Source: an uncultured bacterium
Lineage (GTDB): Bacteria; Armatimonadota; UBA5829; DSUL01
Assembly (NCBI GenBank): GCA_937967775.1
Contig: CALCJH010000436.1
Location: forward strand, 1-11,817
Reading direction: 5' to 3'
DNA length: 11,817 nt
Shown here: in pieces, positions 793-11,552 of the stretch
Numbering within the stretch: the first letter of the stretch is position 1
Layout of the letters: each line of letters starts with the position of its first letter
Translations under genes and position numbers: made by a program
The notes under the pieces: generated by a model
What the model was told of the DNA's origin: nothing
The model's input: only the letters and a program-made list of their open reading frames with translations
The model's database searches: none

Positions 793-1033
793 TCGCCAAC
801 CCCGTGAAGGAGCGGTCGCCCCGGCAACCCTGTCTGCGGGCAGGTGTTTCACGCGACGGCATCGTGGGAGCGGGGGGTGAGCGCATCGCGTCTCGGTCCA
901 GGCCGGGGGCGCGAGTCACGAGCGAAAGGTTGGCGGCGCGGGCTCAGCCCTTTTGCTCCGGCGCGCAAGTCCCCGGGTCAAATAAGCTTCCCACGTTCGT
1001 CTCGGTTTTCTTGAGTTTTCATTGCAAAACCCA

Positions 1034-1062
1034 TTTACTCGGGGCCGGAGGTGCGGTATGCT
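1034..1062 (+). promoter_or_regulatory. Weak possible promoter upstream of the prepilin-like gene
   Basis: TTTACT (1034-1039) and TATGCT (1057-1062) are 17 bases apart. Each matches the sigma-70 consensus at 4 of 6 positions. Transcription from here would read through the inverted repeat at 1076-1090 and the 19-bp motif before reaching the gene at 1230. A start closer to the motif is equally possible. Confidence 0.22.
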
Positions 1063-1160: not shown

Positions 1161-1179
1161 ATGCACATTATGCACCTTA
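1161..1179. promoter_or_regulatory. Candidate operator, copy 1 of a duplicated 19-bp motif
   Basis: The sequence ATGCACATTATGCACCTTA is identical to 5149-5167, and both copies are preceded by TGAAT (here directly, there with one extra A). Inside it TGCACATTATGCA (1162-1174) is a 13-bp near-palindrome with 10 of 12 paired positions symmetric, which suits a dimeric regulator. It can also be read as two tandem 9-bp units, ATGCACATT and ATGCACCTT. It ends 50 bases before the start codon at 1230, within the leader or promoter zone. The regulator is not encoded in the window. Confidence 0.6.
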
Positions 1180-1218
1180 GTGATCATGCGATGAGCGACA
1201 GGGTCTGCTCTGAAAGCT

Positions 1219-1223
1219 GGTGA
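1219..1223 (+). promoter_or_regulatory. Ribosome binding site supporting the start at 1230
   Basis: GGTGA can pair with the UCACC part of the 16S rRNA 3' tail and lies six bases before ATG 1230. The alternative ATG at 1284 has no comparable upstream purine-rich sequence. Confidence 0.4.
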
Positions 1224-1229
1224 ACTCCG

Positions 1230-2033
1230 ATGGCAGCGTGCATTTCTACTCTCAGGCGTCATGGGCTTTCCCGATGCGCCGGGATGGTCATTACCCGGCG
1301 CCGGGCCGACCGACGACAGGGATTCACTCTCATCGAGCTTCTGGTCGTCATCGCGATCATAGCCATTCTGGCGGCCATCCTGTTCCCTGTGTTTGCGGCT
1401 GCCCGCGAAAGGGGCCGGCAGTCAGCCTGCCTGGCTCATCAGAACGAGCTGGGCAAGGCCATGATGATGTATGTAGACGATCATAAGGGTTTCTTCCCGC
1501 GAGGCTATTTCACGGTCCAAGAACCCCGCCCCGGGTCGGTGATCCTCCTCAGCGTACCTGGCAGGACACCGTGGGGTTACGTGTACTGGGGACTGGAGAA
1601 GTACTGCAGCAGTTCCTGGAAGATCCTGATCTGTCCGTCCGACCCCTTGACCTTCAATCCAGGATTCGGAGGATCCGCCTCTTACGCATACAACTCCTGG
1701 TATCTTGGCAACATGACTCCGGACTGGCAGGTGCGAGGCCCCCAGATCCGCGATGCCCAGATCGCTAACCCTGCCCAGACGGTGATGATCATCGAAACCC
1801 AGCCCCATCCGGTGCAGTATCAGGGGCAGTGGATCCGCACCGACCACGCATACCCGCCGTCCATCTCCAGGGGTCAGTACCCGGGCTACGGCGGCATCCC
1901 GAAGGGTTACGACAGCTTCACCGCCTCCCGTCACAGGAAGGGGTTGAACGTCACCTGGGCAGACGGACATGCCAGCTGGATGCCCAAATACGGGGATCTG
2001 AGTAAGGACGATACTCTGTGGGATCTCGAATAA
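1230..2033 (+). CDS. Prepilin-like protein with N-terminal cleavage/methylation motif and C-terminal WADGH motif
   Basis: The 267-residue product starts with an Arg-rich leader, then G31 followed by FTLIELLVVIAIIAILAAIL, a textbook type IV prepilin/pseudopilin motif with Glu at +5. A prepilin peptidase would cut between G31 and F32, leaving a single hydrophobic helix. The next stretch (FPVFAAARERGRQSACLAHQNELGKAMMMY) and the C-terminal NVTWADGHASWM match the DUF1559-like pseudopilin-type proteins that are numerous in Armatimonadota and Planctomycetota. Their exact role is not established; a membrane-anchored, periplasmic or surface function is likely. In-frame TGA at 1221 limits the start to ATG 1230 or ATG 1284 (leader of 13 residues); GGTGA at 1219 favours 1230. 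It lies 60 bases before the first oxidoreductase gene and just after motif copy 1, so it is probably co-regulated with the sugar genes. Confidence 0.9.
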   Translation: MAACISTLRRHGLSRCAGMVITRRRADRRQGFTLIELLVVIAIIAILAAILFPVFAAARERGRQSACLAHQNELGKAMMMYVDDHKGFFPRGYFTVQEPRPGSVILLSVPGRTPWGYVYWGLEKYCSSSWKILICPSDPLTFNPGFGGSASYAYNSWYLGNMTPDWQVRGPQIRDAQIANPAQTVMIIETQPHPVQYQGQWIRTDHAYPPSISRGQYPGYGGIPKGYDSFTASRHRKGLNVTWADGHASWMPKYGDLSKDDTLWDLE

Positions 2034-2093
2034 GCGACCAGCCACGCCCACTCCCGGCCGGTCAGGGGATGCGAGCAGAGAAAGGAGAGTGAA

Positions 2094-3065
2094 GTGAACG
2101 TTGCTATCATTGGCTGCGGGGGGATCGCCCGGGCGCACGCGGAATGCGTGCGAGAGTTTGAGGAAGACCATCTGGTGGCTGTCGCGGACATTGACCGCGA
2201 AGCGGCGGAGCGCTTCGCGGCCCAGTGGGGAGGTAAGCCTTTCCCCACAGTCGAGAACTTGCTGGCTGAGACGCTGCCCGATGCAGCTATCGTCTGCACC
2301 CCTCCGAACACACACCGGGCGGTGGTCAGTGCGTTGCTGACCGCTGGAGTGCCGGTGCTGTGCGAGAAGCCGCTGGCGCACATCGTCCGTGACGCGGAGG
2401 CGCTGGCGGATCTCGCGGGAGAGACCGGGCTACCGGCCTATGTGGCCTACTGCCATCGTTTCAATCCGGCCGCGCGGCTGATGCGCGACTACGTCGGGCA
2501 GGGACGGACAGGCCGAGTTCATACCTTCCGGAACGCTTTCATCGGCTTTGCTCCGCACCTTACGACAGCCTGGAGGACCGAACCGGATATCTCAGGCGGC
2601 GGGTGTCTGATGGATAACGGCAGCCACAGCGTTGATCTCCAGCAATTCATTCTGGGACCGATTGCCGACGTCTATGCCAGCCTTCACTTTGACGGGCAAG
2701 GACGTGGGGACGTAGCTGCAGATCTTCTGACGATAAGCGAATCGGGCGTTGCAGGACTCATCAGTGTCAGCTATGTCAGCCCTAAACCAGAAGCCCGGTT
2801 CGAAATCATTGGTAACGAAATGGCGCTGGAATACGACTACGCCACCAGCGGGGCAACGGTTACGGCATACCGCCCGGGACACGACCCCGAACGCCTTCCG
2901 CTCCCGGCGGGATGTGATGTGCGCTTCATCGAGCAGTACCGCGCCTTCCGCGAGGCGCTACAGGGCCGTCCGACGGACCTGGCCACCTTTGAAGACGGCC
3001 TCAGCGTTTCGCGCATCATAGACCGCTGTCAGCGGCAGGCTGGCATCACAGGGGGCATCGCGTGA
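2094..3065 (+). CDS. Gfo/Idh/MocA-family NAD(P)-dependent oxidoreductase (first copy)
   Basis: The 323-residue product has the two-domain layout of the family. An N-terminal Rossmann fold carries IIGCGGIA (5-12) and an acidic D32 after the second strand, which suggests NAD(H) preference. C90-EKP-L94 is the conserved EKP motif whose Lys takes part in catalysis and cofactor binding. GGGCLMDNGSHSVDL at 168-182 matches the GGGxxxDxGxHxxDL motif, with D174 and H178 as likely active-site residues. Such cytoplasmic enzymes oxidise or reduce hydroxyl groups of sugars, inositols or related compounds; the substrate cannot be assigned. GTG 2094 is chosen because AAAGGAGA (2081-2088) precedes it by five bases and the frame begins directly with the Rossmann strand. 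Its stop overlaps the next gene by four bases. Confidence 0.92.
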   Translation: MNVAIIGCGGIARAHAECVREFEEDHLVAVADIDREAAERFAAQWGGKPFPTVENLLAETLPDAAIVCTPPNTHRAVVSALLTAGVPVLCEKPLAHIVRDAEALADLAGETGLPAYVAYCHRFNPAARLMRDYVGQGRTGRVHTFRNAFIGFAPHLTTAWRTEPDISGGGCLMDNGSHSVDLQQFILGPIADVYASLHFDGQGRGDVAADLLTISESGVAGLISVSYVSPKPEARFEIIGNEMALEYDYATSGATVTAYRPGHDPERLPLPAGCDVRFIEQYRAFREALQGRPTDLATFEDGLSVSRIIDRCQRQAGITGGIA

Positions 3066-4123
3066 GCGGGGGAGCTTTGTCGGACGCGGGAGTTCCCGGC
3101 ATCGGCCTGGTCGGGTGTGGCATCATCTCGCAATGCCTGTTGGAGGGCGCAGAGCTAGCAGGCATCCCGATCCGTGCTGTCTGTGATGTGGACAGGGGAA
3201 AGGCCGCTCGTACCGCGCAGCGGGTTGGAGCGTATGTCCGGGAGACGTATGAGGAGTTGCTGGCGGACCCGGAGATCCAGGCGGTCATCATCGCTCTGCC
3301 GAACGATGCCCACTACCTTGCTGCGCTTAAGGCGCTTGATGCCGGGAAACACGTTTTCTGCGAGAAGCCTCTCACCACATCAGCCGCCCAGTCGCTGGAG
3401 GTTGCCCGGCGGGCAGAGACAAGCGGGCTGGTCTTCCAGATGGGCTACATGAAACGCTTCAATCCCGCCTTTTCTGCTGTCAAGCAGAGGCTGCACCAGA
3501 TCGCGCCGGTCACAACGGCCTCTTTCCGGCTGACGGTATCGGGAGATCCGGTCCTGGAGGGCCCGGGCAGGGAACCATCAAGCTGGCACGCCGACATCGA
3601 GCGGGCTGGAGGTGGCTTTCTGGTGCACTCGGGAAGCCATCTGCTGGACCTGATGATGTTCTACTTCGGTCTTCCGGAGGCGGTGTGGGGCTCACTGAGA
3701 CGCGATGCCAGCGGCAATGAGTATGCCAACAGCTTCATGTTCCGCTTCCCGGACGGGCTGCACGTCAGCCTGCAGATGGTCCAGACCCGAGCCCGGGGAC
3801 TTGGCTATGCTGGCAGCACGTGGGAAGAGATTGTCGAGGTCAATGGTGTGAACGGACGACTGGCGGCGCAGGGAGCCGACTGGATGGGCAAAGTTCCTCC
3901 CCGCGCCTCCTTCCATCCCGCAGATGGGGAAGGCCCGAGAGAACTGTTTACCTTCTGGGAATCGCAATGGGCGGAGGAGATGAAAGCCTTCGTAACGGGT
4001 ATCGCAGAGGGCCGTTGCCTGGGAAGCACCGCTGCCGATGGATACCGTGTGGACTATGTGCTGGAGCAGTTGAAGCGTCTGGAGAACGAAAGCGGTCTGC
4101 TGGAGTTGCGGTATGAACTCTGA
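3062..4123 (+). CDS. Gfo/Idh/MocA-family NAD(P)-dependent oxidoreductase (second copy)
   Basis: The 353-residue product starts at GTG 3062 inside the stop of the preceding gene (GTGA overlap), with AGGGGG at 3050-3055 as ribosome binding site. This points to translational coupling. The Rossmann motif GLVGCGIIS is at residues 15-23, acidic D42 ends the second strand, EKP is at 101-103, and GGGFLVHSGSHLLDL at 183-197 is the C-terminal active-site motif with H193. In that motif the usual Asp is replaced by His (position 189), so it differs from the upstream paralogue. The two proteins are clearly divergent, with no sign of recent duplication, which suggests different steps or substrates. The substrate is unknown. 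Its stop overlaps the following dehydrogenase gene by 11 bases. Confidence 0.92.
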   Translation: MSGGALSDAGVPGIGLVGCGIISQCLLEGAELAGIPIRAVCDVDRGKAARTAQRVGAYVRETYEELLADPEIQAVIIALPNDAHYLAALKALDAGKHVFCEKPLTTSAAQSLEVARRAETSGLVFQMGYMKRFNPAFSAVKQRLHQIAPVTTASFRLTVSGDPVLEGPGREPSSWHADIERAGGGFLVHSGSHLLDLMMFYFGLPEAVWGSLRRDASGNEYANSFMFRFPDGLHVSLQMVQTRARGLGYAGSTWEEIVEVNGVNGRLAAQGADWMGKVPPRASFHPADGEGPRELFTFWESQWAEEMKAFVTGIAEGRCLGSTAADGYRVDYVLEQLKRLENESGLLELRYEL

Positions 4124-5105
4124 CCGAACAGCAGGCAAAGAGATGCGGGCGATGGTCCTTACGGGCAAGGACCGGTTGGAGCTGCAGGAGGTGGACCGGC
4201 CGGAGATCCACCCGGAGGGTGTGCTCGCCAGAGTGGAGGCCGTAGGGATCTGCAACGCTACCGATCTGAGGGTTGTGGAGGCTGACGACCCGACGACGGT
4301 CTGGCCGAACAGGCCTTGGCCTGTGATCCTGGGGCACGAAGTCTGCGGAGTTGTGGAGGAGGTGGGAGCGGAAGTGCAGGGCTGGCAGTCGGGCGACCGG
4401 ATCGCCGGCTGGTGCCCACCCTGCGGAGGATTTGCGGAGTTTTGCCAGTTATACCCAAGCTATATGGCCGCAGTCCGGGTGCCCCCGGAGATGCCTGCCG
4501 AAGAGGCGGCGCTTCTGGAGCTGGCAATCGGGACGACACGATATTTCATGCCCGACGAGGTGATGAGCCGGGTTCGAGCGGCCCGATCGGCGCTGGTGCT
4601 AGGACTGGGACCATCCGGGCAGTTATATGTCCGCGAGTGCGGTCTGCTGGGGATCCCGCAGGTCCTCGCGAGCGACCGGCACGAGGCGCGCCGTAAACTG
4701 GCTCGTGAGATGGGCGCGGCCGAAGTATTCGAGGGTGGGAAAGAGCCCTTCCGCACTCTGCGGGACAGAGGGCAGACGGTGGATGTGGTGATTGACACAA
4801 CCGGCCGGGATCTTGTGGACGACATCCTGCAAGTCCTCGCGCCCGGAGGAGTCATTATCCCGTTCGGGGTGGGGGTGGACTGGGAGTCTAAAAGATCCCT
4901 CCTGGACGAGCGGGGAATCACGCTGCCCAGTGCGCATCTGAAAGAGGCCCGCCTGGCCGCACCGCAGGTCCTAGAGTGGGTACGAAAAGGAAGGCTGCCG
5001 GTGTTCAAGCTGATAACCAGGACCGGCCGACTCGAAGACATACCTGATGCGCTTCAGTCTTTGCGGGAGAGGCGTGACATCAAAGTGATCATTCGCCCCT
5101 GTTAA
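4113..5105 (+). CDS. Medium-chain zinc-type alcohol/polyol dehydrogenase
   Basis: The 330-residue product belongs to the MDR superfamily. VGICNATDL (44-52) and ILGHEVCGVV (72-81) are the catalytic-domain signatures, with C47, H75 and E76 as likely catalytic-zinc ligands. GDRI (94-97) is followed by CPPCGGFAEFC (101-111) instead of the full four-cysteine structural-zinc lobe, so that lobe is shortened or lost. GLGPSG (164-169) and acidic D188 indicate NAD(H) binding. The start at 4113 has GGAG at 4102-4105 seven bases upstream; ATG 4143 is an alternative. It overlaps the preceding oxidoreductase gene by 11 bases. Family members oxidise secondary alcohols of sugars and polyols. The likely role is one redox step in a sugar or cyclitol pathway, substrate unknown. 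Confidence 0.88.
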   Translation: MNSDRTAGKEMRAMVLTGKDRLELQEVDRPEIHPEGVLARVEAVGICNATDLRVVEADDPTTVWPNRPWPVILGHEVCGVVEEVGAEVQGWQSGDRIAGWCPPCGGFAEFCQLYPSYMAAVRVPPEMPAEEAALLELAIGTTRYFMPDEVMSRVRAARSALVLGLGPSGQLYVRECGLLGIPQVLASDRHEARRKLAREMGAAEVFEGGKEPFRTLRDRGQTVDVVIDTTGRDLVDDILQVLAPGGVIIPFGVGVDWESKRSLLDERGITLPSAHLKEARLAAPQVLEWVRKGRLPVFKLITRTGRLEDIPDALQSLRERRDIKVIIRPC

Positions 5106-5148
5106 AGGGTCCCCGACGGTCCTTGCGGGGCTGAATGGCAACTGAATA

Positions 5149-5167
5149 ATGCACATTATGCACCTTA
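5149..5167. promoter_or_regulatory. Candidate operator, copy 2 of a duplicated 19-bp motif
   Basis: This is the exact second copy of ATGCACATTATGCACCTTA, again preceded by TGAAT (5143-5147). It lies in the 94-base gap after the dehydrogenase gene and ends 32 bases before the glycosidase start at 5200. AATAAT at 5145-5150 matches 5 of 6 positions of a -10 hexamer and overlaps the motif's left edge, although the best upstream -35-like sequence (TTGCGG, 5124-5129) is at a short 15-base spacing. Overlap with a promoter would suit repression. The two in-frame ATG triplets in the motif are not the gene start. Confidence 0.6.
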
Positions 5168-5184
5168 TTTCACAGACTCCGTCC

Positions 5185-5191
5185 AAGGAGG
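5185..5191 (+). promoter_or_regulatory. Ribosome binding site deciding the glycosidase start at 5200
   Basis: AAGGAGG is a perfect Shine-Dalgarno core, eight bases before ATG 5200. Upstream in-frame ATGs at 5149 and 5158 lack such a site and fall inside the conserved motif, so the longer N-terminus (MHIMHLISQ...) is very likely not translated. Confidence 0.8.
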
Positions 5192-5199
5192 TCAGGCGG

Positions 5200-8100
5200 A
5201 TGGCCGAGGCGATGATACGTTGCTGGATCAGTGCGAGCCTCGCGCTGGCAATGACGGCGGGAGGAGGGACCATGGGGTATGCATCCGAGTTCGACCCCCT
5301 GAAGGAACTCCACGAAAGGGAGCGGACCGTGACCGCGTCCTGGACTGCCGAGCCCCCGGCGGTTGACGGCGTTATCAACCCCGGCGAGTGGGACTGCGCG
5401 GCAGCGACCGCAGGATTCCACAGCGCGACTGAGGTCTCGCTGCTGCCGGAAAGCCCGGTGATCTTCACCGCGTATGGACAGAGTCACATCTATGTGCTGA
5501 TCGTCACCCCGCAGGACGCCTCGCGGCCGCTTTCAGCGCGTGTCACAGAGCGCGATGTCGCCGCTCTGGTGAGCGACGACAGTATCGAACTGTTCCTGAG
5601 CCCAGACCTGAAAAACGTCTTTCAATTCATTACCAACCCCGCCGGTATAACGGCGGACCTCAAGAATGATACTCTGCATTGGAGCGGCGAGTTCAAAGCC
5701 GCGGCAGGGGAGATCGAAGGATCCGCTCTCCCGGCGGAGTGGGGACTTCCGGCCGGGAAATACTGGTTTGCGGAGTTTGCCATCCCTTACTCTACACTGG
5801 AAACTTCAAAGCCGTCGGCAGGCGATCGCTGGAGCATCAATGCTGCCGTAAATCGCGCCGGGCCGTGGGCGGCGCTGAGTGAGCGGAAGGACAAGCTCTT
5901 CTCCCACATTCCCGATCACGCCGCACTGATCTTTCTTGGGCCGGGGGAACCGTATGTCCAGTTGACCACACTGGGGGCGTTTCATTTCGGGGAACCAGCT
6001 CCTGCCGGGCGGGTGTTCAACCCGGGTAGTAATCCCATCCGCGTCAACCTGGACCTGGATATGCGCAAGGAGGGCAGCCGGACCACCGAGGACGCCTACC
6101 GCACCATCATCGGCGCTATCAAGTCCTTCAGCACCGTTCTGGACGTGCCGCCATCTTCCAACCGAGCTTTTAGCTTTCCGAACGAAGCCAAGGACACCAC
6201 CATTGACCGGCTGGCCATCCGGATGGCTCTGGCGGGCGAAGACGGCAAAGCCCAACAGGATCTTGTGCTGCGGCGAGGCAAAGTGCAGGTCCTTCCGCCG
6301 CTTGTCCTTCGGATCGGGAATGTGCCTTCGCGCCGCTACTCCATTCTGACGGCCGAGACTTCCGGCCTGAAGAGCCGGCTGAAGGAGAAGCCGGTAACCT
6401 TACGGGTTACCGTGCAGGATCAGGAGGGCAAGACTGTGCTGACGCGGCAGACGGCGGGATCCGCCGGGCAGCATGAGCTGCGTCTGGACTGGAACCGTCT
6501 CCCCGCTGGCGAGTACCAGTGCAAAGTAACCGCAACTTCGGTTGAGGGAGACGAGATGGCTTCCGCCGAAACATCCTTCCATATTCCGGAAGACCCTGTC
6601 TGGCTGACCAGCACCATTTACGATAACTACGGGAAGACCGACCGCGTACCTCTGCCCTGGCGCCCAGTCAGGATGAACGGGCGGACGCTGGATATCTGGG
6701 GCCGGACGGTCACCTGGGAGCCCACCAGCATTTTGCCTTCCAAAATCAAGAGCCTTGGTGTGCACCTGCTGGCCGAACCCATGAAGCTGGTGGTGTCGGC
6801 CGGTGGTCAGGAGTTTGCCATTCCGATGGACTCGTTCCGCGTCACAGCGCAGAACCGCAAACGGGTCACGTTCTTCGCGGAAGGGAAGGCCCGGGGCATC
6901 GGCGTCCGCGCGGATATGTTCGCGGAGTTCGACGGGTTCATCTGGGTGCAATTGACCCTCACAGACCAGATCGAGGGGCGGAAAGTTGATTCCTTGCGCG
7001 TCCTCACCAGAATGGACGCGTCACAGACCCATCTGTACCAGACCTTCACGAGGAATCTCACGGGCGCCATTCCAGACAAACCTGTCCGGATCGCCTGGCA
7101 GCCGTTGCCGAACGAATCCATCGTAAACTTCTATCACTGGCTGGGCAATGAAGACCGGGGGCTCGGTTTCACCTTCGCCACCCTCCAGCACTGGATTCCT
7201 CGCTCGGAGGACAACTTCGCAACCATCATCCCGGGCAAAGACAGGCACACCTACGCCATCAACCTGATCGAACGGCCGGCGTCTCTCGACGGGCGGCGGT
7301 TTGTCTTCGGCATCCAGGCCACGCCCATCAAACCCCTGCCACCGGACTGGCACGGCATGGTGGCCACCAGCAAGCACTGGCAACCCTGGCGGTTCTCGAA
7401 CCAGAAGCCTGAGTGGGTGGACATTGAACTGGTGTGGCCGGAGCCGATGACCACCATCATGCTCGGGCTCAACAACCCCTACAACGTGGATGCGAAGCAG
7501 TTTCTGGAGCATCTGAAAGAGTCGCACGATCGTGGTGTCTCCCTGGTGACGGTGGCATCCTGCCCGCAGAAGATTTCGCATCACGACCACTGGATGCGGG
7601 ATTTCGACCTGGAGTGGAAGAACCTGCCGGAATCCGTATTGAACTGGAACGGTGTGCCCACCTACCAGAACTGCGGACGTTCCTATACCCTCCGGAAGTG
7701 GCTGTTCTACGGCTGGGCGGTGGAAAACGTTCAGAAGCTGGGCACGGATGGTATCTACTTCGACGGATGGCAGTCGGGCCAGATGGGCTGCTGGAATCCG
7801 CATCACGGTTGCGGGTGGGTGGATGAAGAAGGCCGCAGGCACCTGACGGTGCCTGTGCTGGAGGGTCGCGAGTTCAATCAGCGGATGTGCCTCTTCCTGG
7901 AGGACCATGTCAAAGCTCCGCATTTTCTGGCGGAGGGAGCGCCCGAGCGCCCGGGGTTCCCCAGATACCACTACTGGATCCATTCTTGGGAGTTCGTGCC
8001 GTCCGTGATGGGCTATGCCACCGAGTGGCTGACCGGGGAGTTCACCGGTTACCCCCAGACGGGCACCAGCACGTTTGATCCGGCAGGGTCTTTTGCGGAC

Positions 8101-8661
8101 TGTATTGGGCTGGACTTCTTCCGCACCCGAGGGCTTTCCACCAACTACGGCGTCACCAACTTGTGGCTTCCCATGATCTGGGAGGACGAGGAGGAGCTGA
8201 AACGGGACCAGCAGACAGTCATGGCGCTCGCCTGGTTCCTTCCGCATGGAGTCCCCATCGGAGGAGCGAGCTACCTGAACCGCCAGACTTTGATGGAGGT
8301 GCTGGACGTCCTCTACCGTTACAACCACCGCCACGCAGAGTTCACTCCAGGATGGCGCGCAAACCCGTTCTGGACGATAGAAAGCCCGCGTTCGCGCGAA
8401 GTGATGGTGGCCACCTGGAAGACTAAGGGGCAGAACCGGGTGCTGGCCGTTGTTTCTAACCTGCAGTTGAAAAAGGACGCGGAAGTCACTTTGCGCTGGA
8501 CCGGCTTTCCCGGAGCCCGTTTCGTGAATGCCCGCACCGGAGAGGATCTGACTCCGCGACAGGGACGGCTGACAGTCACGCTGAAGCCCGAGACATTTGT
8601 TCTCATTGCAGCAGAGAGGGAACGCGAGACACCCACCCATCGGGGAGCCGACCGCAGATGA
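5200..8661 (+). CDS. Exported multidomain glycoside hydrolase-like protein (CBM9/DOMON-like plus GH123_N/DUF6067-like and TIM-barrel-like regions)
   Basis: With the start at 5200 the product has 1153 residues and begins with a signal-peptide-like segment (R7, hydrophobic 9-20, possible cut after YAS, residue 29). Residues of about 47-246 resemble a CBM9/DOMON-type carbohydrate-binding module (PPAVDGVINPGEW, DDSIELFLSPD, EFAIPYSTL). Residues of about 367-468 look like an Ig-like beta domain. A beta-rich region of about 470-710 (DIWGRTVTWEPTSILPSKIK) recalls the GH123_N/DUF6067 family. A barrel-like region of about 744-1080 contains LGTDGIYFDG, with D850 and D855 as candidate active-site acids. 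A short beta domain ends the protein. Activity and substrate are not assignable by eye; a periplasmic or extracellular glycosidase is the best guess. It follows motif copy 2 and overlaps the next gene by four bases (ATGA). Confidence 0.8.
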   Translation: MAEAMIRCWISASLALAMTAGGGTMGYASEFDPLKELHERERTVTASWTAEPPAVDGVINPGEWDCAAATAGFHSATEVSLLPESPVIFTAYGQSHIYVLIVTPQDASRPLSARVTERDVAALVSDDSIELFLSPDLKNVFQFITNPAGITADLKNDTLHWSGEFKAAAGEIEGSALPAEWGLPAGKYWFAEFAIPYSTLETSKPSAGDRWSINAAVNRAGPWAALSERKDKLFSHIPDHAALIFLGPGEPYVQLTTLGAFHFGEPAPAGRVFNPGSNPIRVNLDLDMRKEGSRTTEDAYRTIIGAIKSFSTVLDVPPSSNRAFSFPNEAKDTTIDRLAIRMALAGEDGKAQQDLVLRRGKVQVLPPLVLRIGNVPSRRYSILTAETSGLKSRLKEKPVTLRVTVQDQEGKTVLTRQTAGSAGQHELRLDWNRLPAGEYQCKVTATSVEGDEMASAETSFHIPEDPVWLTSTIYDNYGKTDRVPLPWRPVRMNGRTLDIWGRTVTWEPTSILPSKIKSLGVHLLAEPMKLVVSAGGQEFAIPMDSFRVTAQNRKRVTFFAEGKARGIGVRADMFAEFDGFIWVQLTLTDQIEGRKVDSLRVLTRMDASQTHLYQTFTRNLTGAIPDKPVRIAWQPLPNESIVNFYHWLGNEDRGLGFTFATLQHWIPRSEDNFATIIPGKDRHTYAINLIERPASLDGRRFVFGIQATPIKPLPPDWHGMVATSKHWQPWRFSNQKPEWVDIELVWPEPMTTIMLGLNNPYNVDAKQFLEHLKESHDRGVSLVTVASCPQKISHHDHWMRDFDLEWKNLPESVLNWNGVPTYQNCGRSYTLRKWLFYGWAVENVQKLGTDGIYFDGWQSGQMGCWNPHHGCGWVDEEGRRHLTVPVLEGREFNQRMCLFLEDHVKAPHFLAEGAPERPGFPRYHYWIHSWEFVPSVMGYATEWLTGEFTGYPQTGTSTFDPAGSFADCIGLDFFRTRGLSTNYGVTNLWLPMIWEDEEELKRDQQTVMALAWFLPHGVPIGGASYLNRQTLMEVLDVLYRYNHRHAEFTPGWRANPFWTIESPRSREVMVATWKTKGQNRVLAVVSNLQLKKDAEVTLRWTGFPGARFVNARTGEDLTPRQGRLTVTLKPETFVLIAAERERETPTHRGADRR

Positions 8662-9548
8662 AAAAGATCGGATTCATAGACCATTACCTGAAGAACTTCC
8701 ACGCGGCTATCTACCTTAAGCTGATCCGCGAAGGCAGCTTCGGGGACCGTTTCGACGTTGCCTACGCCTACGGGGAAGTGTCCGTTGACGGCGTGGACAG
8801 CAGGAAATGGTGCGAGGAAAACGGTGTCGAGCTGCTGGAGAGCCCGGACCGGCTGGTCGAGAACTCGGATTGCATCGTCGTGCTTGCGCCTAACAACTCG
8901 GAGCGTCACTGGGATCTTTGCCAGGAAGCGCTTCGATCAGGAAAGCCGGTTTACGTTGACAAGACATTCGCCCCTGACACAGAGACGGCGGTCAGGTTGA
9001 TTGACCTGGCAGTGAGCTCGGGCACCCCCATGTTCACCACCTCCGCCCTGCGGTTCGTCCCGGAAATCCGGGAGTTCCGGGAAGGGATCGGCAAGCAGCA
9101 TCCGGCTAGGGCGGTGAGTGTTCGGGGCCCGAGCTCCTTCGCCGTTTATGCAGTACATGTCATCGAGCCGCTGGTGATGCTGCTGGGACACGGAGCCTCA
9201 TCCGTGACCTACTTTGGAGATGGCAGTTTTATGCAGTTCGGCGTCAGCTATCCGGACGGACGCATTGGCGGCTTCAATCTCTTCGAACCGGGTTGCTCTA
9301 TTGGCGATCAATGGTACGGCCATCCCTTCGAAGCCAGCATTATCTTCGGCGAAGGGACGGTCGCCTACCGGTTTACCACCGGCGATATGTTCCGCGACCT
9401 GGCGGACGCAATGTGCGCCTTCTTTGAAGGCGGCCCTTCCCCTGCCCCCTATGAAGACACCATTGAGGTGATGGTGCTCATCGAAGCTGGACGGGAGGCG
9501 ATGGCCAGACCCGGAGAGCAGATTCCCGTGAAAGGACGCAGGAACTGA
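8658..9548 (+). CDS. Divergent Gfo/Idh/MocA-like oxidoreductase (third copy)
   Basis: The 296-residue product starts at ATG 8658, overlapping the glycosidase stop by four bases. The fold is recognisable: a Rossmann-like start (KKIGFIDHYLKNFHA), the pattern IVVLAPNN followed by ALRSGKPVYVDKTF, and a C-terminal sheet region. It is atypical, though. The GxGxxG loop is absent, EKP is replaced by VDKTF (100-104) with K102 kept, and the GGGxxxDxGxH motif is replaced by VYAVHVIEPL (163-172). The opening MKKIGFIDHYL recalls a separate subfamily of putative oxidoreductases seen in sugar-utilising bacteria. Cofactor use may differ from the two upstream paralogues, or the protein may have a non-redox role. 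It lies between two glycosidase-like genes, so a sugar-related substrate is likely. Confidence 0.8.
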   Translation: MKKIGFIDHYLKNFHAAIYLKLIREGSFGDRFDVAYAYGEVSVDGVDSRKWCEENGVELLESPDRLVENSDCIVVLAPNNSERHWDLCQEALRSGKPVYVDKTFAPDTETAVRLIDLAVSSGTPMFTTSALRFVPEIREFREGIGKQHPARAVSVRGPSSFAVYAVHVIEPLVMLLGHGASSVTYFGDGSFMQFGVSYPDGRIGGFNLFEPGCSIGDQWYGHPFEASIIFGEGTVAYRFTTGDMFRDLADAMCAFFEGGPSPAPYEDTIEVMVLIEAGREAMARPGEQIPVKGRRN

Positions 9549-9551
9549 ACC

Positions 9552-11552
9552 ATGCAGGGACGCGGCATCCAGGCCACGGCGGAAAGAGAGCACGCCAGCG
9601 GGGGACACCTCCTACTGCGCGGCCGCACCTGGCTAATGGAGGTAAGCCCTGAGTCCGGTTGGGCAGAACTCAGCCTGCCGGATCACACACCTCTCTTCCG
9701 CTTCCCGGCAGCAGCGAGGACGGTTCTGGCTGACGGCAGGGAAGAGGAAACGCCGAGCGCTGCCCATTGGAGCGCCGAGGAGGACGGGCGAGTGGTCTTG
9801 ACTGCGCGGGGAACGGTCTGGGCGGAGCATAACCTGAGCTTTGAGGCGCACGAGGACTTCCTGCTCGTCCGGTTCCACGCTAAGGCAGCAACTCCTCTGC
9901 GGGTGCGCGAGACCATGCTTTTCTCCCGCGACAGACGCGGTTTGGAGCTCGGCTGCATACTGGAAGGGTTCGCCCCGGCTCCAGTGCACGGGCGCGACGG
10001 GGAAGAGGCGCTGTTCTCAACGGTTCCGTGCTCCACGACCGTGCAAAGCTATCTCACGCCGCCTCCAGCCCTGGTAGGAATCCATATGCCCGCAGGCTGG
10101 GCCGGGATAGGACTGGCCAGCTTGCCCGACGCCGAAGGAATGCTTCTCACCGACACCTGGGAGGCGCTCATAGATCGACCGTCCGGGCACATCGAAACCG
10201 GTGCCGGGGAATACTACTCGCCCCCGCCCGTTGTGTGTGTCTTCGCTGAGGATCCCTGGTCTCTGGTGGAAAGATTCCGGACTGCGCTGGTGGAACTCGG
10301 GGAGACCGGCGCCACGCCGATCGAGGAACGCAGCCTTCCCGACTGGTGGAAGTCCCCGTTCTATTGCACCTACGGGGACCAGATCATCGAGATGCAGCCG
10401 CACTGGTGTACAGACCGCGACTGGGCTCACCCTGCTTATACATCGGACTGGGTCAGGGAGAAGGTTGCAGCGCTGGAACGGCGGCTGGACTGGAACGGTT
10501 TCACGGTGATCATTGACGCGTTCTGGACAGATCCCTGGAACGCGGACCCGGTTCCCTCAGCGCGGTTTGAAGATCTTCCTGAGCTCATAAGGTGGCTCCA
10601 CGCTCGCGGGCATAAAGTGCTTCTCTGGTACTTTCCCTTCCATACAGCCCTGACAGGTGGACACGGGTGCCTGGCCAGGGAGTTCCAAGTGCTGGATCCG
10701 GGCTTGCCGGAAGATGCGGTGGAGGGATCTATTGACGCCACCGCCCCCGGCTTTCGTGCTTACGCCGCCGAGATCTCACGCCGGATGTTCGGAAGGAAGG
10801 GCCTCGATGCAGATGGGGTAAAGCTGGATTTCCTGTTCCGGCTTCGCAGTCCCGCAAATGCCCGCTACCATCGTCCGGAACAGGGCATGGGTCTCCGGGA
10901 AGCTCGCCTGTGGCTAGAGATCTTCGCCGAAGAGGCCCGGAAGGTCAAACCTGATGTGCACATCAACTGGAGCGCTGGCGATCCCCGCTTCGATGGCCTG
11001 TTCAGCAGCAACAGGACGCACGATGTGCACCGGGATCCTCTGGAAATCCAGCGCCGGGCCCGTATCTGCACCGCGGGCTGCCCCGGCACGCCGGTGCAGA
11101 TGGATGGCTGCCTGATGCGTGCGTCCTGGGCGGAGGAGGCCTATCTGGCCGCTGCGGTCTACGGGATCCCCTCCCTCTATTACAGCCATACGTTCCATGG
11201 GGGCGACCCGATCCCGAATGAGACTATGGGCATTCTGGCCACCCTTCTGCGGCTTGCTGCAGAGAAACCGTGGGGACGCGCCCGCTTTCTGGGTTACGGA
11301 AGATGGCAGCTGGAGAGCGCAGGAAAGATCGTGGCCGAGAGTGTCGAGGGGCGGGCTCTCGTGATGTTTCCTTCCAACGCTGAGGGGCGGATCTTCAGTC
11401 TGGACAGCAGAAGACGGCGACTGCCTCTCCATGGGCGCACCCTAGCAGGAATCGAGCCCCGGCCCGCGGCGCTGATGGTCCGAGGCGGCCAGGTGGAGGC
11501 CGACTGGGTTCGCGGAACCCTGTACCGCCTGTCTGTGAAGGAGGAGACCTGA
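9552..11552 (+). CDS. GH36-like (clan GH-D) glycosidase, probably cytoplasmic
   Basis: The 666-residue product has no signal peptide. Residues 1 to about 255 form a beta-rich N-terminal domain, as in GH36 alpha-galactosidases. The barrel starts near residue 261 (SLPDWWKSPFYCTYGD). It includes FTVIIDAFWTDPWNADP, then RFEDLPELIRWLHARGHKVLLWYFPF, the typical pattern of GH31/GH36 enzymes. GLDADGVKLDFLF at 417-429 matches the KxD signature of clan GH-D, with D426 as the likely nucleophile. The acid/base residue is not certain; acids near PVQMDG are candidates. GH36 members act on alpha-galactosides, alpha-N-acetylgalactosaminides or as raffinose/stachyose-type transferases; specificity cannot be read here. 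The start has AGGA at 9540-9543 and lies three bases after the upstream stop. Its own stop overlaps the next start by one base. Confidence 0.82.
   Translation: MQGRGIQATAEREHASGGHLLLRGRTWLMEVSPESGWAELSLPDHTPLFRFPAAARTVLADGREEETPSAAHWSAEEDGRVVLTARGTVWAEHNLSFEAHEDFLLVRFHAKAATPLRVRETMLFSRDRRGLELGCILEGFAPAPVHGRDGEEALFSTVPCSTTVQSYLTPPPALVGIHMPAGWAGIGLASLPDAEGMLLTDTWEALIDRPSGHIETGAGEYYSPPPVVCVFAEDPWSLVERFRTALVELGETGATPIEERSLPDWWKSPFYCTYGDQIIEMQPHWCTDRDWAHPAYTSDWVREKVAALERRLDWNGFTVIIDAFWTDPWNADPVPSARFEDLPELIRWLHARGHKVLLWYFPFHTALTGGHGCLAREFQVLDPGLPEDAVEGSIDATAPGFRAYAAEISRRMFGRKGLDADGVKLDFLFRLRSPANARYHRPEQGMGLREARLWLEIFAEEARKVKPDVHINWSAGDPRFDGLFSSNRTHDVHRDPLEIQRRARICTAGCPGTPVQMDGCLMRASWAEEAYLAAAVYGIPSLYYSHTFHGGDPIPNETMGILATLLRLAAEKPWGRARFLGYGRWQLESAGKIVAESVEGRALVMFPSNAEGRIFSLDSRRRRLPLHGRTLAGIEPRPAALMVRGGQVEADWVRGTLYRLSVKEET
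11538..11546 (+). promoter_or_regulatory. Strong ribosome binding site for the last gene
   Basis: AAGGAGGAG lies inside the final codons of the GH36-like gene and five bases before ATG 11552. It supports a real gene start overlapping the upstream stop (TGATG), which suggests coupled translation. Confidence 0.75.

Follow-up and report, generated by a model that had tools for sequence, protein, structure and literature searches.

A duplicated and conserved 19-bp sequence as a candidate operator pair of a sugar-degradation gene cluster in Armatimonadota

Why should an uncultured member of the Armatimonadota carry the same 19 bp in front of two neighboring blocks of genes? The question is raised by contig CALCJH010000436.1 of assembly GCA_937967775.1, analyzed here over its whole length of 11,817 bases (hereafter the window) and belonging to a genome given as 69% complete. 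A window scan confirmed what a first-pass annotation had noticed, namely that ATGCACATTATGCACCTTA occurs on the plus strand, exactly both times, at 1161-1179 and 5149-5167 (sites B1 and B2). We consider the 19-mer very probably a selected cis-regulatory pair. No third copy within three mismatches is present elsewhere in the window, and 200 dinucleotide-preserving shuffles yielded no match at that threshold. Identical 19-mer pairs are expected by chance about 0.0014 times in the window (both strands, composition-adjusted), which is of the same order as the 5 in 10,000 estimated earlier, and 2e-6 times when the calculation is restricted to 630 intergenic bases around both sites. The only other repeat of at least 16 identical bases is one 16-mer inside coding sequence (7308/9563). 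TGAAT, also described as preceding each copy, does stand before both; the register differs, with an extra A before the 19-mer at the second copy.

Sequences related to the 19-mer were matched in 9 of 61 genomes in a search allowing one mismatch. The comparison presented here comprises three locus-bearing genomes and six sites: the genome of the window (G000), G001, which belongs to the same genus and is assembled as one contig of 3.29 Mb, and G003, a more distant member of the same family; G002, the fourth family genome, is without the locus. In G001, only two matches are found at zero to one mismatch (one with none and one with one), spaced 3988 bp as in the window and preceding orthologs of the same two genes, with locus proteins 83-93% identical (one 63-amino-acid piece, 81%). 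The first site of G003, TACACATTATGCACC, stands before the prepilin ortholog with one mismatch, and the second, AACACATTGTGCACC, found on the contig that carries the 68% identical GH123-like ortholog, occupies the same place before that gene with three mismatches. Both sites are thus ahead of orthologous genes in all three compared genomes found to have the locus. In three-way alignments of the two upstream regions, the overall share of invariant columns is 89 of 289 and 79 of 215, whereas it rises to 14 of 15 in the best 15-column windows, which coincide in part with the sites and, in the case of the first promoter, with an upstream sequence termed element A as well; the windows holding the exact 15-mer reach 13/15 and 12/15. 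Upstream of the first site the three genomes differ: the window has a ferredoxin/nitroreductase gene, G001 one with WD40 repeats and G003 that of an MFS transporter. What is conserved here therefore goes with the downstream unit. It is because the sites are kept at the same two places in G001 and G003, within the best-conserved upstream islands, that we regard them as very probable products of selection.

The position of the sites suggests how they may act. Site B1 ends 50 bp before the prepilin start at 1230. At B2, the conserved footprint continues through TTTCACA (to 5174) in all three genomes, and TTCACA is also shared by the first site of G003. The ATG at 5149, within the second copy, is in frame with the downstream open reading frame (ORF); the GH123-like gene most likely starts at 5200, behind a Shine-Dalgarno-like AAGGAGG at 5185-5191. 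Between the end of the second 19-mer and AAGGAGG there are 17 bp, which should place this copy at the promoter core or downstream of it; by eye, the gap to AGGGAG at the second site of G003 is about as short. A site at or around the start of transcription would suit a repressor operator, with no room for a classical upstream activator.

The form of the site is less clear-cut. The claimed near-palindrome holds in that five of six inverted pairs match in TGCACATTATGCA, but a 9-bp direct-repeat reading matches equally well (5/6 positions), so symmetry is not decisive and a dimeric palindrome is a possible form. The conserved core TGCACATTATGCACC departs from the canonical GntR operator (NyGTNxACNy), having no GT before AC on that strand; the second site of G003 does contain GTGCAC.

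Which protein might recognize such a site? The first-pass annotation proposed a search for a co-conserved regulator, and where the cluster is assembled, in G001 and G003, it includes a sugar-type GntR/LacI gene. The G001 counterpart of the gene cut by the end of the window encodes a URO-D-family protein, followed by two GH130 genes, the GntR/LacI regulator, an AraC-type response regulator and an SSF sodium:solute symporter; the window ends ahead of the GH130, regulator and symporter genes. The regulator of G001 (349 amino acids; L131:7602-8648, minus strand) is of AraR type, with an N-terminal GntR winged helix-turn-helix (HTH; PF00392, 2.2e-13, residues 12-75) and a C-terminal LacI/periplasmic-binding-protein-like sensor (PF13377, Peripla_BP_3, 5.8e-19). 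The HTH matches the AraR structure 4egy, and the sensor matches LacI-family structures and the AraR sensor 3tb6. Its G003 ortholog is 73% identical and lies in the same gene order, on one contig that reads GH130 (cut)-GH130-GntR-AraC-SSF. In G000, the AraC-type gene (cut) and the symporter are found at the end of another contig, C364, and because this neighbor is cut there, the GntR/LacI gene of the window genome most likely falls in an assembly gap. Among 291 genomes of the phylum, orthologs at E 1e-45 were found in two, both site-bearing.

A large protein database yielded 15 ortholog clusters at E 1e-40, one of which (P0015) is short and has no precomputed GntR domain; the closest named relative of the G001 protein is 96% identical and labelled Armatimonadota. 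The recognition helix VCHKTVQ is invariant in all 15 aligned sequences (the G001 protein and 14 others), down to 43% identity, and is shared by the distant orthologs P0008-P0014 (43-51% identical), of which no copies were found in the 291 phylum genomes. One distant member of the group P0001-P0014, P0011, is labelled Firmicutes. Two more distant GntR/LacI homologs, from G112 and G118 (31-33% identical), differ in the helix and have nothing closer than 4-mismatch matches in their vicinity, which is neutral in this respect. Aligned to YvoA, the candidate has His at position 38 and Gln at position 42 in place of the canonical G-contacting arginines (PMC4494728, Table 1), and the canonical Glu/Arg positions are Thr/Leu in the G001 protein (contact table of PMC4494728). 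A helix lacking the canonical GntR arginines leads one to expect a site without GT...AC half-sites; the pairing of a non-canonical helix with a non-canonical site is compatible with recognition and not proof of it.

From these data we propose, with a rough probability of 0.55 for the whole mechanism, that an AraR-type GntR/LacI protein represses two units through the 19-mer. The sequence would serve twice in one cluster as an operator near the 5' end of each unit, the first comprising the genes for prepilin, two Gfo/Idh proteins and a dehydrogenase, and the second those for the GH123-like protein, a Gfo/Idh protein, an unassigned protein, URO-D, two GH130 proteins, the GntR and AraC-type regulators and SSF. 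Without sugar, the regulator would bind both sites and shut both units, including its own gene; a sugar from the substrate of the locus would occupy the LacI-like domain, and the regulator would leave the DNA. As the regulator gene lies in the second unit, the circuit would be autoregulated. Judging from the GH130 and Gfo/Idh genes, the sugar may be a mannoside, or a different glycoside processed via oxidized intermediates.

Several observations weigh against this mechanism. Over the six sites, the inverted reading scores 27/36 and the direct reading 26/36, and the conserved letters are asymmetric, the right CC being kept at 6/6 sites while the mirrored left positions are A/T. The scan gave no sigma-70-like promoter at either site, and if the candidate promoter of unit 1 (Table 1) is real, transcription would begin about 90 bp upstream of B1. 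Neither in G001 nor in G003 does a copy within three mismatches immediately precede the regulator gene. The scan gave no terminator between the two units, and the hairpin before B2 folds like shuffled sequences (z -0.10), so the inferred two-unit arrangement rests on the sites and a 94-bp gap. Finally, the AraC-type regulator is as well co-conserved as the GntR/LacI protein.

This last point leads to the most serious alternative, doubtful in our estimation, in which the AraC-type response regulator recognizes direct repeats in the 19-mer (TGCAC at a spacing of 9 bp, with TTTCACA in addition at the second site) and the GntR/LacI protein acts elsewhere, for example at element A. In G001 and G003 its gene comes after that for GntR, and G000 has a copy truncated at the end of a contig; the three versions show hardly any variation in the HTH part. 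The direct and inverted readings fit about equally well, and B2 bears a further CAC-containing repeat. However, activation by AraC-type proteins usually proceeds from repeats that are longer and spaced differently, and B2 appears too near the Shine-Dalgarno-like sequence for a classical activator position.

It is improbable, in turn, that the protein binding the 19-mer is encoded at another place in the genome. Trans-acting regulators are common, but a local target of two sites with two regulator genes beside it is what one typically sees for locus-specific control, and G000 and G001 are without any other site at zero to one mismatch. The same observation bears on a wider regulon, for which the first-pass annotation suggested a genome-wide scan: its reading of a cis-regulatory pair serving a sugar-degradation locus is well supported by the conservation before orthologs in three genomes and by the sugar-type regulator gene in the two of them where that part is assembled, while a genome-wide regulon is unsupported, and further sites expected before other prepilin-like, Gfo/Idh and glycosidase genes did not appear in G000 or G001 at this threshold or at any of 17 GH123-like relatives. 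At two mismatches, all eight sites of G001 (five) and G000 (three) fall inside mechanically called ORFs, and the two of G002 among the matches listed are both in long open frames, making 10 of 10 sites looked at; the negative result covers zero to one mismatch in G000 and G001 and two-mismatch sites in G000, G001 and, as listed, G002. Counts at up to three mismatches were higher in all four family genomes than those of a reversed-pattern control, which differs from the motif in its dinucleotides, namely 60/51 in G001, 49/22 in G000, 47/35 in G003 and 58/36 in G002. In other relatives, no homologs of eight window proteins were present in the stretches fetched around zero-to-one-mismatch matches in G017, G020, G022, G024 (twice), G035 and G046. 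Among at least 115 loci with the exact 15-mer in a species-genome collection, no locus relatives were found with 14 query proteins, which gave three weak matches. In L090 (Armatimonadetes), G017 and G024 (C426), the 15-mer match falls within a stretch common to them that, by eye, resembles coding sequence. The putative operator pair probably controls this cluster alone.

The distribution among GH123-like proteins was examined through 20 matches. All three close orthologs (68-100% identical) carry the site, and none of 17 loci of paralogs or distant relatives has one within three mismatches, some of these stretches being short or partial (including L180/L201 and L188-L191), so that the true upstream region may be missing. 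G002 has only a 41% identical GH123-like protein, and neither a site at zero to one mismatch nor a regulator ortholog at E 1e-30. All four family genomes have a GH123-like paralog (41-42% identical), which lacks the 15-mer within three mismatches (G000:C364, L200; G001:C1:173456-175759, L197; G002:C62, L198; G003:C88, L199), and that of G000 shares its contig with the symporter.

That the 19-mer serves a special sigma factor as a core promoter element is very improbable: the sequence does lie just before both gene blocks, beside AT-rich AATA(A)T, but a sigma factor normally serves more promoters than the two zero-to-one-mismatch copies in each of G000 and G001 would provide, and the sites show no sigma-70-like match. 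Still less plausible is action at the RNA level, whether as a structured leader or through a short peptide, MHIMHL, encoded in the leader. Both copies open an ATG CAC ATT ATG frame in G000 and G001, but the first ATG is missing at both sites of G003 (ATACAC, AAACAC), no Rfam match was found in the window, and folding is no better than that of shuffled sequences (z 0.64 and -0.02). Chance, recent duplication or an assembly artefact, in favor of which no point was found, is scarcely credible given the chance expectation above and is contradicted by the conservation, since three genomes, including two assemblies other than that of the window, have the pair at the same two places.

The features of the window are collected in Table 1. 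The pilin-like gene at the head of the sugar operon belongs to DUF1559, a family whose Pfam name is now SBP_bac_10, and its place is kept in the three genomes. The WD40-repeat protein that is its upstream neighbor in G001 (L132:2524-5220) has 898 amino acids with 13 matched WD40 stretches and is encoded divergently from the prepilin operon.

Table 1. Sites, candidate promoters and genes of the window.
Feature	Position	Strand	Remarks
Element A, GTTTTC-N4-CAAAACCC	1015..1032	+	Partly palindromic (GTTTT...AAAAC)
Candidate promoter of unit 1	1034..1062	+	TTTACT, 17 bp, TATGCT; 8/12 consensus letters
Site B1	1161..1179	+	First 19-mer copy; conserved core at 1162-1176
Prepilin-like protein, first gene of unit 1	1230..2033	+	N-terminal methylation motif, DUF1559/SBP_bac_10 (Pfam)
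Gfo/Idh/MocA oxidoreductase	2094..3065	+	Pfam
Gfo/Idh/MocA oxidoreductase	3062..4123	+	Pfam
Zinc-type alcohol/polyol dehydrogenase, last gene of unit 1	4113..5105	+	Pfam
Weak candidate promoter of unit 2	5123..5150	+	TTGCGG, 16 bp, AATAAT
Site B2	5149..5174	+	Second 19-mer copy (5149-5167) and conserved footprint
Large protein, first gene of unit 2	5200..8661	+	GH123 N-terminal-domain similarity (Pfam)
Gfo/Idh-type protein	8658..9548	+	Pfam
666-amino-acid protein	9552..11552	+	No Pfam or NCBIfam match; possibly glycosidase-like, by eye
Gene start cut by contig end	11552..11817	+	88-amino-acid piece; no Pfam match

The candidate promoter of unit 1 falls below the scan threshold; the three genomes share its TTTAC and its distance from GTNCGGTA, with a weaker -10 in G003. 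That of unit 2, whose -10 abuts B2, is not in the scan listing and is not convincing in the relatives. Element A, which adjoins the unit 1 candidate (TTTACT-17-TATGCT), occurs without mismatches exactly once in each of G000, G001 (C1:202259-202276) and G003 (C108:14213-14230), always at the first promoter and before the prepilin operon only, starting 147-161 bp upstream of the start of the first-site 15-mer. No exact copy is present in G002, where the best match has one mismatch. At up to two mismatches, its counts against a control were 4/5 in G000, 15/7 in G001, 23/13 in G002 and 8/7 in G003. The element could be a site of the AraC-type protein or of another activator. A bolder reading, which we hold only tentatively, is that a mostly Armatimonadota AraR-type clade with the altered VCHKTVQ helix reads a new, asymmetric operator and that the AraC-type protein, acting through element A, would complete a two-input switch, bringing the DUF1559 pilin-like protein, which may be a surface component for sugar capture, under common control with glycosidases, Gfo/Idh dehydrogenases and a sodium symporter.

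Among known systems, AraR of Bacillus subtilis has the same two-domain make-up (GntR HTH and LacI-type sensor) as the candidate. It is described as governing a local sugar regulon with operators, some of them paired, at several promoters, its own among them (PMC4218819). Its ara boxes are 16 bp long, for example ATACATACGTACAAAT (PMC4218819), and differ from the core found here. Where the AraR helix has Arg-63, His-64, Thr-65 and Arg-67, the candidate, as placed by alignment, would have His, Lys, Thr and Gln (table in PMC4494728). GntR-family regulators with non-canonical sites are listed in PMC4494728, namely FarR, NagQ, NanR (direct repeats) and BioR, which resemble the candidate in having a GntR HTH whose site departs from NyGTNxACNy. 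Their site sequences differ from the one described here. They also carry sensor domains other than that of the candidate. LacI shares with the candidate the sugar-sensor fold (Peripla_BP_3) and an operator at the start of transcription, as proposed here, but has a LacI-type rather than a GntR-type DNA-binding domain.

Among the papers listed in a search of the open-access literature, covering titles and the starts of abstracts, none had a title on Armatimonadota regulons. The conserved putative operator pair, together with the co-encoded candidate regulator, would provide a concrete, testable assignment of a regulator to its site in Armatimonadota, and it would tie a DUF1559 pilin-like gene, from a Pfam family of unknown function, to the control of a sugar locus.

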